Source of the DNA: Halobacteriovoraceae bacterium
GTDB taxonomy: Bacteria; Bdellovibrionota; Bacteriovoracia; Bacteriovoracales; Bacteriovoracaceae
Assembly: GCA_002711995.1 (NCBI GenBank)
Contig: PASN01000013.1
Location: 124,001-188,000 of the forward strand
Direction: 5' to 3'
DNA: 64,000 nucleotides
Position numbers and translations under genes: made by a program. The notes beneath the pieces are model-generated. The model had not been told where the DNA came from. It did no database searches and was given only the letters and a program-made list of their open reading frames with translations. Shown piece by piece: positions 20,313-40,207 of this stretch (position 1 is its first letter; each line of letters opens with the position of its first letter).

Positions 20313-20822
20313 GTGTCAAAAATTATAATTATAGCTGGTAGCAATAATAAGAACCTCGAAGTTGCAAATGAGTTTAAAAAAAACTTGGCGAGCAAAGATG
20401 TGGAATCAGAGGTCTTGGATCTCGTCTCTCTTAACTTGCCTTTGTACACACCTGCGGCAGAGCTGGAAGGGATTCCTCTTGATATCGCAAAATATAAGAA
20501 GATTATTGATAATGCTCAGGGATTTATTTTCTCTATCCCAGAATACAATGGAGGAGTGCCACCTGTTGTAACAAACTTTATAGCATGGATCAGTAGAAGC
20601 GGTGATCTGAACTGGAGGGAGTCTTTTAATGGAAAGCCTGCTGCACTATCAAGCTTTAGTGGCAGCGGGGGAATTTAGGCCTTGGTCGCATTGAGAACTC
20701 AGCTCTCCTATATTGGGCTAAACACGATTGGTCGCCAGGTGCGTGCCACATATAAAGAAAATCTCAACCTTGAAGACGTTAATGCTGTTTCAGACCTATT
20801 AATTCAAGGAATGAAGTCCTAA
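20313..20822 (+). pseudogene. NADPH-dependent FMN reductase broken by an in-frame amber stop
   Basis: The frame starts MSKIIIIAGSNNKN and has the flavodoxin-like motifs IFSIPEYNGGVPPVV and PAALSSFSGSGGI of the NAD(P)H:FMN/quinone reductase family (ChrR/YieF type). A TAG at 20676-20678 ends it at 121 residues. After the stop the same frame continues with ALVALRTQLSYIG, the expected next family segment, and ends at 20822. Without the stop the enzyme would have 169 residues, near the family's usual length. This is a point mutation, a sequencing error or readthrough. It is co-oriented with pirin, and AGGAGTCTAA lies before the ATG. Confidence 0.8.
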
Positions 20823-21502: not shown

Positions 21503-21531
21503 TGAACTATTATTTCTCTTTTAAAGTCTAA
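21503..21531 (+). promoter_or_regulatory. Candidate ECF sigma-dependent promoter
   Basis: TGAACT (21503-21508) and GTCTAA (21526-21531) are spaced by 17 bases. This is close to the GGAAC/GTCTAA pattern of many ECF sigma factors. It sits about 45 bases before the first gene of the operon that encodes an ECF sigma, as expected for autoregulation. A match by eye only. Confidence 0.4.
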
Positions 21532-21576
21532 GTATTAGGTCTGAAATAATACAGGCCATAAATGGGGAGTAACTAA

Positions 21577-21819
21577 ATGAAGAACTTAATGTTAGCTACA
21601 ATTGTATTAGGTTTTGTAAGCGGGCCGGCCATGGCATCCAAGTCTGAGCGCAGACAGGCCAAGATTTCAGCATGCGAAGGAAAAGAACAAGGAAGCACTT
21701 GCAGTTTTGAGGGAAGAAGGGGAAGTGTTGAAGGAGTTTGTAAGGAAGGTAGACGAAATCCCGATGTGCTAAAATGTGTAAATCCAAATCGAAAGAAAAG
21801 AAACAAGAAATCCAACTAA
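21577..21819 (+). CDS. Small secreted four-cysteine protein
   Basis: The 80-residue protein has a signal peptide (LMLATIVLGFVSGPAMA) and a short mature part with four Cys spaced C-x8-C-x12-C-x11-C. It ends in a very basic tail (NRKKRNKKSN). The identical cysteine spacing occurs in the next gene, where it is fused to a Spy-like domain, so this is a free-standing version of the same module. Two disulfides or one metal site are possible. It begins an operon with GGGGAG before the ATG and is nine bases from the next gene. I know of no assigned function. Confidence 0.75.
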   Translation: MKNLMLATIVLGFVSGPAMASKSERRQAKISACEGKEQGSTCSFEGRRGSVEGVCKEGRRNPDVLKCVNPNRKKRNKKSN

Positions 21820-21828
21820 GGAGCTCAT

Positions 21829-22386
21829 ATGAAAACAACAACCTTTATTTTGTTATTTTTATCACTCAGTCTGCAGGCCAATGCAAAACAAAATGGAAAC
21901 AGATGGAACATTATTAAAGCTGCTTGCGAAAGCAAATCAGAAGGTCAGAAATGCTCCTTTGAAATGAAAGGAAAAAAACTTGAGGGAGAGTGTAAGAAAG
22001 GCAAGCGGGATGACTCATTGCTTGTTTGTAAACGCTCCGGAGGAGGAAAAATGGCCATTCTTAGGGAGTTAGACCTTACAGATGACCAGTTAAAAAGTTT
22101 GAAAGAATTCATGTCGAGTCACTCAAAAAAGAGAAAAGACTTAAAGGGTGAAGGAAAAGCAAAGAGAGAAAAAATGAAGCAGCTATTTATTGCTGGAAAG
22201 TCTGATGGTGAACTAAAGAAATTGCATGAAGAAATCTCATTAGAACATCAAAAAAGAGGTAACTTAAGACTGGAAAAAATGATCTTTCTAAAAAATCTTC
22301 TGACTAAGGAACAACGTGAGGCATATATCGAAAAAGGTGGTGATCGACCTAAACGTCGTGGAAGAAGGGGACACGGACCGAAGTAA
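21829..22386 (+). CDS. Secreted chimera of four-Cys module and Spy/CpxP-like domain
   Basis: The 185-residue protein has a signal (LLFLSLSLQANA), then ACESKSEGQKCSF with the same C-x8-C-x12-C-x11-C module as its neighbour. From about residue 80 it is helical with two LTxxQ elements (LTDDQLKSL and LTKEQREAY), the mark of the Spy/CpxP/ZraP family of periplasmic chaperones and metal sensors. The tail is RPKRRGRRGHG. In CnrYXH-type systems the CnrX sensor has a related fold and controls an anti-sigma. Here the gene overlaps the sigma gene by one base (TAATG), so it is probably the sensor or the main output of the same circuit. Confidence 0.7.
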   Translation: MKTTTFILLFLSLSLQANAKQNGNRWNIIKAACESKSEGQKCSFEMKGKKLEGECKKGKRDDSLLVCKRSGGGKMAILRELDLTDDQLKSLKEFMSSHSKKRKDLKGEGKAKREKMKQLFIAGKSDGELKKLHEEISLEHQKRGNLRLEKMIFLKNLLTKEQREAYIEKGGDRPKRRGRRGHGPK

Positions 22387-22919
22387 TGCAAAAAGTTAAA
22401 AGATTTATTTTCAGCTCCAATAGGACGAAAAATGATGAGCTCATTAAACGCTTCAAGAAAGAGTATCTGGACAATGAGGCGTTTGTGCGCTCATCAATAT
22501 ATTGGATGGTAAATTCAAACTCAGTCGATGACCTCGTACAGGAGACATTCTTAAAGGCCTGGAGGGGATTTGATGGCTTCCAGGATAACTCCTCTTTTAA
22601 AACTTGGATTTATAGAATTGCTATGAATGTGGTCTACACCCATTTTCAAAAGAATTCTAGAGTTTACGAAACACTTGAAGGGGTGGAGCAAAGTGACTCA
22701 GGTAGTGATCCAGAGATTTCAGACTTGATCTCTCTAGGCCTCATGAAGTTAACACCAGATCAGAGACAGGTTTTCTCTTTGCATTATCAACTGGGCTTTA
22801 CCTACAGGGAAGTTGGAGAGCTACTTGAAATTTCGGAAGGTACTGCAAAATCTAGGGCCAATAGTGCTAAGACTAAGTTTGTAAGTTTTTTGAATGAAAA
22901 TGGATTTAAGTATGAATGA
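22386..22919 (+). CDS. ECF-family RNA polymerase sigma factor
   Basis: The 177-residue protein has the two ECF domains. Region 2 holds VDDLVQETFLKAWRGFDGFQ and SSFKTWIYRIAMNVVYTHF. Region 4 holds LTPDQRQVFSLHYQLGFTYR and a helix-turn-helix EISEGTAKSRANSAK. It overlaps the Spy-like gene by one base (TAATG) and the next gene by eight bases, so all are translated together. It probably transcribes its own operon from the promoter at 21503. Signal and regulon unknown. Confidence 0.92.
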   Translation: MQKVKRFIFSSNRTKNDELIKRFKKEYLDNEAFVRSSIYWMVNSNSVDDLVQETFLKAWRGFDGFQDNSSFKTWIYRIAMNVVYTHFQKNSRVYETLEGVEQSDSGSDPEISDLISLGLMKLTPDQRQVFSLHYQLGFTYREVGELLEISEGTAKSRANSAKTKFVSFLNENGFKYE

Positions 22920-23214
22920 CGATGAATTAAAAAAGTTTTTAAGATTGAATGGGAAAGTTGCTGAAAGGCCTTCAACCGAATGGGTTGAGATTCTTGGCAA
23001 AATAGAGCGTGATCACTCCAGGCCGTCTTTTTTTGACAAGATAAAGTCTTTAAATTTCGGAGTTGGACTGGCCGGAGTTGCAGTTGTTTTAATTGTTGGA
23101 ATCAGTACAATTAAAGAAGAAAAGGAACTAGAAAAACTCAGTCGAGTGGAGGAGTTTTTGACAGAAGACACTTACTTCACTGAGGTTGAAGAGACTTACT
23201 CTTGGATTAGATAG
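22912..23214 (+). CDS. Short membrane anti-sigma factor (CnrY-like position)
   Basis: About 100 residues: a cytoplasmic part with NDDELKKFLRLNGKVAERPS, one membrane helix (FGVGLAGVAVVLIVGISTI) and about 40 residues outside. It lacks the HxxxCxxC zinc motif of ZAS anti-sigmas. Its position directly after an ECF sigma, its size and topology match small anti-sigmas such as CnrY. The start at 22912 gives the tightest overlap with the sigma stop. An in-frame ATG at 22894 would add six residues. It should hold the sigma at the membrane until the Spy-like protein or the four-Cys protein signals. Confidence 0.75.
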   Translation: MNDDELKKFLRLNGKVAERPSTEWVEILGKIERDHSRPSFFDKIKSLNFGVGLAGVAVVLIVGISTIKEEKELEKLSRVEEFLTEDTYFTEVEETYSWIR

Positions 23215-23252: not shown

Positions 23253-23624
23253 ATGCATCTAAACATCGATCCATCCTCACCAGCGGGGGATGAAATTTCT
23301 TTTAACCAATTCTTAGCAGTTGATATAAGAGTGGGTGAAGTTCTTGAAGTCGAGAACTTTCCTGAAGCTAGGAAACCAAGCTATAAATTGAAAATTGATT
23401 TTGGGAAGGGGGTTGGAGTTAAAAAATCCAGCGCTCAAATTACTTCTCATTACTCGAGAGAGTCCTTGGTCGGAAAGAAGGTTCTTGCAGTGGTAAACTT
23501 TCCACCAAGACAGATTGGCAAGTTTATGTCTGAGGTTCTAGTAATGGGATTGGCCGATGAAAACAATGATATTGTGCTCATGAGTCCAGACAGAGAGGTT
23601 CCAAATGGAGCGAGGCTTCTTTAA
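23253..23624 (+). CDS. csaA: CsaA-like tRNA-binding-domain chaperone
   Basis: The 123-residue protein is an OB-fold of the tRNA-binding type: FLAVDIRVGEVLEVENFPEA, RKPSYKLKIDFG, KKSSAQIT, VVNFPPRQIGKFMSEVLVMG and SPDREVPNGARLL. This is nearly the whole CsaA consensus. CsaA dimers are associated with protein export in Bacillus. It is separate from the ECF operon by 38 bases and overlaps the following lipoprotein gene by 20 bases, so the two are probably co-translated. Confidence 0.92.
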   Translation: MHLNIDPSSPAGDEISFNQFLAVDIRVGEVLEVENFPEARKPSYKLKIDFGKGVGVKKSSAQITSHYSRESLVGKKVLAVVNFPPRQIGKFMSEVLVMGLADENNDIVLMSPDREVPNGARLL

Positions 23625-39571: not shown

Positions 39572-40207
39572 CTACAGCCAGAGCACATTGTTGCTTAGCT
39601 CATCAGCTCCGCTCTGGCTAACTTTCTCTGGAAAAGCTGCAAGAAGCTTTTCTTCAAGGGCCGCCAGGCCATCTTCATAAGCTTTAAGATAGCTCTTTTG
39701 GGTAAAGCCCTCTTTAACTTTTAAAACAATCTCTTCAAGATCCGCTTGAGTTATTTTTTCTTTAATGTTTTTTCCAACTAAAACTTCAATTCTTTTCTCA
39801 TAAAGACTTGTATAAATTAGGGTTTCATTGGAGTGGCTTGCTTTCTCAGAGCAGTGTGTGAAAAAGACCTCTAAGGCCTTCTCTTGAACCTCTCTTTCAA
39901 CTTCTGAGTCTACCAATGCCCAGGATTTAAAAAGTCTGAGTCTGGAAAGAGGTAAGAACAGAAAAGTTAAAATCAACTGACAAAGAATATATAAGTAGGA
40001 GTAGCCAAACTCTATGAAGTAGCTCAGTAGGAGTGTTGTAAAAAAAGCTAAGAAAATTGAGCTTCTCAGAACTGCCCCCGGGTAGGGATCAGATTCTTTG
40101 GCCACGACCAAAACAAGTTCAGCTCCGGTGTTGTTCTCAAATTGGACAACTCTTTCTTTGAGTTTTGCTTCTTCTTCTTTATTTAAAATTTTCTTGTTTA
40201 ATATCAT
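39572..40207 (-). CDS. TPM-domain membrane protein, short form
   Basis: About 210 residues starting MILNKKILNKEEEAKL. A TPM domain (FENNTGAELVLVVAKESDPYP at the start, and YTSLYEKRIEVLVGKNIKEK) is split by two membrane helices (residues about 48-82). It starts on the last base of the upstream TPM gene stop (TAATG), so the pair is coupled. A TTG six bases earlier is possible. TPM proteins of this order, TPM-TPM-LemA, are widespread; they are thought to act in membrane or photosystem repair, but the role is not settled. Confidence 0.8.
   Translation of the reverse strand: MILNKKILNKEEEAKLKERVVQFENNTGAELVLVVAKESDPYPGAVLRSSIFLAFFTTLLLSYFIEFGYSYLYILCQLILTFLFLPLSRLRLFKSWALVDSEVEREVQEKALEVFFTHCSEKASHSNETLIYTSLYEKRIEVLVGKNIKEKITQADLEEIVLKVKEGFTQKSYLKAYEDGLAALEEKLLAAFPEKVSQSGADELSNNVLWL

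Follow-up and report, generated by a model that had tools for sequence, protein, structure and literature searches.

A probable autoregulated envelope-stress sigma factor circuit of Bdellovibrionota with a Spy-type protein and lineage-specific cargo

Within a 64,000-nt stretch of a Halobacteriovoraceae genome (contig PASN01000013.1, positions 124,001 to 188,000; hereafter the window), four closely packed genes encode a small secreted protein with four cysteines, a chimera joining the same four-Cys module to a Spy-like domain, an ECF sigma factor and a small membrane protein, which raises the question of what such a circuit senses and what it controls. The original prediction, made from the DNA letters alone, regarded the four-Cys/Spy chimera as the likely sensor of a system resembling CnrYXH. 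The features are as follows.

21503..21531, + strand: ECF-type promoter TGAACT-N17-GTCTAA, at a position conserved in relatives; the sigma factor at 22386 is its presumed reader.
21577..21819, + strand: stand-alone secreted four-Cys protein of 80 aa (from the ORF list).
21673..21777, + strand: four-Cys module C-x8-C-x12-C-x11-C of the stand-alone protein, seen in the sequence and with four invariant Cys in alignment A6.
21829..22386, + strand: chimera of 185 aa with signal peptide, four-Cys module and Spy/LTXXQ domain (PF07813, E=1.2e-8).
21925..22029, + strand: fused four-Cys module of the chimera, with Cys positions as in the stand-alone protein and three other fused proteins.
22042..22326, + strand: Spy/LTXXQ domain of the chimera (PF07813, residues 72-166).
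22386..22919, + strand: ECF sigma factor of 177 aa (Sigma70_r2, 8.5e-16; Sigma70_r4_2, 1.3e-12).
22894..23214, + strand: putative class-II-like membrane anti-sigma factor of 106 aa with a single TM and no Cys, assigned by its hydrophobic segment, conserved end segments and homologues beside sigma genes.
23152..23211, + strand: periplasmic tail of the anti-sigma, TEDTYF....YSW, a candidate Spy docking site by column identity.
23253..23624, + strand: CsaA-type tRNA-binding/export-related chaperone (TIGR02222, E=3.5e-46, above cut-off).

The four-gene order, the near-overlaps, both modules, the ECF sigma factor and the membrane protein lacking a zinc motif were all confirmed where they had been placed, and so were the promoter upstream of the operon and the shared cysteine spacing of the two secreted proteins (Cys at residues 33, 42, 55 and 67). 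By ORF coordinates, a 9-nt gap separates the stand-alone gene from the chimera, the chimera and sigma genes overlap in TAATG, and the sigma and anti-sigma genes overlap by 25 nt, or by 8 nt if the anti-sigma begins at ATG 22912. The CsaA-type gene begins 39 nt 3′ of the anti-sigma gene and was not seen beside the corresponding genes of the other genomes read, so that it is possibly a read-through cargo of the operon in the window genome only. Before the operon, a flavin reductase-like ORF (20313-20800, +) appears to be broken: near position 20677 an in-frame TAG interrupts it, and the frame stays open beyond.

The sigma factor contains regions 2 and 4 only, as judged by Pfam, and CnrH itself gave a match at 4.9e-9. 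The downstream protein has one hydrophobic stretch (residues 55-73); it has no Cys, no HxxxCxxC zinc motif and no Pfam match, hence no class I anti-sigma domain, and a comparison with PDB sequences yielded no meaningful match, nor did CnrY match in sequence. The family is conserved at both ends, i.e. in the cytosolic N-terminus and in a periplasmic tail whose last residues are Y-(A/S)-W, with a variable linker and membrane segment; the mean column identity of the tail was 0.55 versus 0.33-0.41 for linkers and TM in alignment A3, and 0.47 versus 0.26-0.39 in A9. In the window the tail peptide reads TEDTYFTEVEETYSWIR. Judged from the alignments, such two-ended conservation would fit a relay in which the sigma factor is held inside and the Spy protein is read outside. 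A membrane-held ECF sigma factor and a presumed envelope response are likewise known from RpoE-RseA and the zinc/class I systems, which differ from the present one in that neither their class I domain, nor HxxxCxxC, nor an RseB-like partner was recognised here.

The C-terminal part of the chimera belongs to the LTXXQ/Spy family (PF07813, 35.9 bits versus a gathering score of 24.3), and the profile of this family of proteins matches E. coli Spy at 3.7e-9. The AF2 model of the chimera has a pLDDT of 88.7 and rests on only 23 sequences; its best Foldseek match was CnrX (prob 0.97-1.00, TMt 0.65-0.73, E only 0.12), and the predicted fold of the Spy protein also matched ZraP and CpxP. With the Spy/CpxP/ZraP proteins the window chimera shares the LTXXQ domain, but it is coupled to an ECF sigma factor rather than to a two-component system, and is fused to the four-Cys module.

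How far, then, does the CnrYXH analogy reach? HxxxH and HxxxM are the metal-ligand motifs of CnrX, and a motif check found them absent from the window protein and rare in its relatives, on which ground CnrX-type metal sensing was rejected. CnrX senses Co and Ni through ligands including Met123 (PMC7689651), and CnrY, its partner, belongs to the class II anti-sigma factors and wraps around its sigma factor (PMC8103513, PMC7406223). The architecture of the analogy stood: common to the window and the Cupriavidus metallidurans system are an ECF sigma factor, a small single-TM anti-sigma without zinc motif, a partner whose nearest solved fold is CnrX and, in relatives of the window, an RND target. 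The gene order did not, being Y-X-H in CnrYXH and X-H-Y in the sets read here; furthermore, the window's sensor candidate is secreted rather than anchored and carries the extra module, and the RND pumps linked in relatives are of multidrug type. A true sensing of nickel, cobalt or another transition metal, to which the fold, the zinc-less anti-sigma, the RND targets and a sub-threshold Metal_resist match in Pfam would all be congenial, is thus considered very unlikely, given that the ligand motifs are missing from nearly all relatives as well, that most of the sensor proteins have cleavable-looking signal peptides, and that the gene order and the pump type (below) speak against it.

The arrangement is not particular to the window genome. 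A triad of Spy, sigma and anti-sigma genes was read at 52 loci in several families of the phylum Bdellovibrionota. With a sigma profile that was built from Spy-adjacent sigma factors, and whose counts describe one orthologue group rather than ECF factors generally, 26 loci were detected in 25 of the 129 genomes of the window's family, and a sigma of this type was present in 59 of 369 genomes phylum-wide. All 26 family loci have the Spy gene immediately upstream, and 25 have a small anti-sigma-type gene downstream, the single exception being a locus cut short. Of another 26 loci, 24 come from other families; the Spy gene was directly upstream in 25 of the 26 (the exception lies at a contig end), and the small downstream gene was present in all. 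The regulatory module is phylum-wide, of a known kind but with new wiring and a new accessory; a literature search for Spy or LTXXQ proteins adjoining ECF sigma genes found nothing describing such a circuit. In one genome (G059; L112, 874-1542, minus strand), the Spy gene is separated from the sigma promoter by a gene for a lipoprotein-like DUF2202 protein.

Such constancy bears on whether the Spy protein belongs to the relay at all. Alternatively, the Spy and four-Cys proteins could be outputs only and the anti-sigma itself could sense, e.g. via regulated proteolysis, with Spy outside the relay. A precedent is E. coli Spy, whose expression is driven by the Cpx and Bae systems; the Spy gene also comes first in the operon, and most triad Spy proteins look soluble and secreted, with cleavable-looking signal peptides. 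This alternative is nevertheless judged unlikely, though it deserves serious consideration, in view of the tight conservation of Spy beside sigma and anti-sigma genes across families, the conserved periplasmic tail of the anti-sigma, and the membrane-anchored-looking, CnrX-like Spy proteins of some triads. We infer instead that the Spy-fold protein acts as a periplasmic sensor or co-inhibitor.

The promoter was then considered across these loci. The exact pattern TGAAC-N18-GTCTA occurs at two sites in the window, so the bare pattern is not rare, and the second site, at 39885, lies within a coding gene and antisense to it; what makes the promoter significant is its conservation at the same place in relatives rather than rarity of the pattern. 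Among the family triads, 24 have sufficient sequence 5′ of them, and 23 of these are preceded by the exact motif; the same holds for 17 of 25 triads from the other set (20 of 25 when one mismatch was allowed). From 40 sites a fuller consensus was derived, namely TGAACCTTTT, a variable stretch and then CGTCTA. As a control, the pattern with a spacer one base too long gave five scattered sites in the 129 genomes, versus 21 sites, mostly at triads, with the right spacing, and the chance of such a promoter site is about 2e-5 per 100 nt. Most of the exceptions are variants, with a spacer one base shorter or longer (L174, L162) or, at L152 and L179, with GGGAGC as the −35 element, the usual CGTCTA and an unchanged total length; the promoter is thus near-invariant in the family and takes recognisable variant forms in outlying lineages. 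In the genome of L152 the four-Cys gene lies behind a GGGAAC...CGTCTA site of its own, which suggests, on the basis of one genome, that the triad and four-Cys promoters may have drifted together and co-evolved with the sigma factor. L152 and L179 belong to two other families; like CnrX, the Spy proteins encoded there seem to keep an N-terminal anchor that is not cleaved off. Taken at the level of sequence conservation, the operon is probably autoregulated by its own sigma factor through the TGAACT-N17-GTCTAA promoter.

One of the triads has already been partly studied. Four published bd0881 primers (RTF, RTR, F2 and R2) map exactly on the triad of one genome, which identifies that genome as Bdellovibrio bacteriovorus HD100, the Spy gene as bd0880, the sigma gene as bd0881 and the membrane protein gene as bd0882. 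At this locus (L182) the profiles matched with E-values of 2.9e-28 for Spy, 1.5e-41 for sigma and 1.5e-8 for the anti-sigma, and the exact promoter motif is present; the 162-aa Bd0881 is 34% identical to the window sigma. The window triad is orthologous to bd0880-bd0882, with the same order, homologous genes and the same type of promoter; HD100 differs in having neither a four-Cys gene nor a fusion. The longest bd0880 ORF starts within the promoter region (L182, 1807-1843), and the likely true start is the Met of MKFNLV, 12 codons later. The three genes are co-transcribed, and a bd0881 mutant preys less efficiently and has slightly shorter flagella (Lambert et al. 2012, PMC3464611); bd0881 expression is attack-phase specific (PMC3627812), and Bd0880 was already known as a CpxP homologue (PMC5941755). 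Because heat shock caused the mutant no loss of viability and left groE expression unchanged (PMC3464611), the stress concerned is not general heat. The gene after bd0881 was described as having no homologues, and the sigma as having no usual anti-sigma gene (PMC3464611). By its profile match, bd0882 falls into the family whose genes accompany almost every sigma of this type in the phylum, making its product a candidate anti-sigma of Bd0881.

What the circuit drives was sought in the genes that adjoin triads or carry the promoter. In two genomes of one genus, a TolC gene lies within about 15 nt after the anti-sigma gene and precedes an RND permease gene; the one such permease scanned was of multidrug type. 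Pump genes follow or flank the triads of six genomes, of RND type by profile in G204 and G240 and recognised by eye in G297, G242, G237 and G238. In G094 a divergent promoter pair faces a second triad in one direction and four-Cys, TolC, adaptor and MacB genes in the other. Six Bdellovibrio genomes, including HD100, have an RND gene that lies apart from the triad and follows an exact copy of the promoter at a distance of 19-43 nt, and multidrug typing covered these genes in two of the six. The HD100 (G154) site, at 1086941-1086968 on the minus strand (L194), precedes a multidrug-type permease gene, the permease being a predicted Bd0881 target. For the linked RND pumps, multidrug-type scores clearly exceed those for CusA/CzcA, and the conserved targets of the circuit appear to be multidrug-type RND pumps, encoded in the operon or linked by the promoter. 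Since the relatives' targets are pumps of this kind, the likelier signal would be damage to the envelope, or else amphiphilic compounds that the chaperone surface of Spy would recognise.

No counterpart of the promoter-linked HD100 pump was found in the window genome, where none of the RND genes carries the sigma promoter and the exact motif matches outside the operon are all antisense to or inside genes. A wide regulon was rejected for this genome on these grounds, and the output of its circuit seems to be the operon itself. One RND permease gene of the same genome (G000:C7:232646-235707) is seemingly split by a stop codon.

There remains the four-Cys module, the feature that had been proposed as a sensor of thiol-reactive metals or oxidants. 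The stand-alone protein matched no Pfam, NCBIfam or PDB family. AF2 predicted a helix and three strands for it, with a core pLDDT of about 90, and the same fold with good local confidence in the chimera; the model had no significant match among solved folds. The mature protein is strongly basic (net +10 in 60 residues). Apparently, the module is an undescribed general secreted domain. Eighteen copies were found in 15 of the 369 phylum genomes, with an enrichment in genomes that have this type of sigma factor: the sigma type is present in 9 of the 15 module genomes versus 59 of 369 overall (Fisher p=9e-5), an association that is more than chance. Against the expectation that four-Cys proteins might mostly lie away from sigma genes, the copies are about evenly divided, with eight of the 18 at a triad and one more with the sigma's promoter, and those nearest in sequence to the window's modules are the linked ones. 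At triads the module is stand-alone upstream (window, G100), fused (window, G004, G094, G095), divergent (G094 C5) or downstream (G240). The ninth copy belongs to G001, a genome of the same genus as the window, where it and the triad are on different contigs; it has the exact promoter at −73, and the Spy protein of G001 has no module; the stand-alone relatives in G001 and G100 have the promoter at −70 to −73. The remaining nine copies showed no exact promoter where examined, and G186 has a site with one mismatch. Diverged modules were also observed beside SCO1 and YHYH protein genes or a di-haem peroxidase gene, or fused to the C-terminus of a YHYH-domain protein (L055, L056, L057, L060). A contig search with an alignment of close-relative modules returned two loci only, both in genomes already sampled, and tblastn against plasmids gave one weak Paracoccus match with no sigma nearby.

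A sensing role would mean that Cys oxidation or the binding of thiol-reactive metals alters the chimera and frees the sigma factor. The fusion to Spy in four genomes with identical Cys positions, probably from two events, and the tie of the module to the circuit in a second family could be read in this way; however, well over half of the 52 triads have a Spy protein with no four-Cys module, the stand-alone copies are under promoter control as outputs are, the linked outputs are efflux pumps rather than redox genes, and periplasmic cysteines more probably form structural disulfides. The module as core sensor was hence rejected as the main reading, and we consider it improbable. Instead, because most triads have no module and the sigma promoter precedes stand-alone copies even when the triad is far away, the stand-alone protein is presumably an accessory output of the circuit and most probably acts as a response effector in the periplasm or outside the cell.

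Fusion to Spy has probably occurred twice. In the tree, the window sigma and two sigma factors with unfused Spy partners form a group (support 100/97) that excludes the other fused cases, and at least two changes are required to account for the fused state; a single origin followed by several losses would be less economical. The fused and stand-alone modules of the window are 36% identical, versus 56-63% between the window's stand-alone module and the copies of G100 and G001, indicating that the fused module is no recent copy of its neighbour. That the fusion added a thiol/disulfide gate, making the predators' envelope-stress switch in these lineages responsive to redox state or to thiol drugs, is a rather doubtful proposition.

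Altogether, these data make it likely that Bdellovibrionota possess an autoregulated cell-envelope stress circuit of a sigma factor, a small anti-sigma, a Spy-fold relay and promoter-driven, lineage-specific cargo. In the proposed mechanism, the cytosolic N-terminal segment of the anti-sigma would hold the sigma factor at the inner membrane, and the periplasmic Spy-fold protein would bind the short conserved C-terminal tail of the anti-sigma. Envelope stress, such as unfolded protein or an amphiphilic toxic compound, would engage the Spy protein, change the relay and free the sigma factor, which would then transcribe TGAAC-N18-GTCTA promoters, including that of its own operon, and so provide more Spy chaperone and the feedback inhibitor. 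It would also drive lineage-specific cargo, often an RND or MacAB-TolC efflux pump and, in the window, the secreted four-Cys protein.

For the predatory bacteria, this means that Bd0881, a predation-linked sigma factor published without an anti-sigma, gains a likely anti-sigma, a periplasmic partner, a promoter and a pump target, and that a loose end of predator regulation becomes a directly testable circuit. The logic leading from CnrX/Spy through an ECF sigma factor to RND pumps is extended from metal resistance to apparent envelope or drug stress, and the circuit appears to swap its cargo: one lineage has a pump where another has a four-Cys protein, and cargo has even become fused into the putative sensor.
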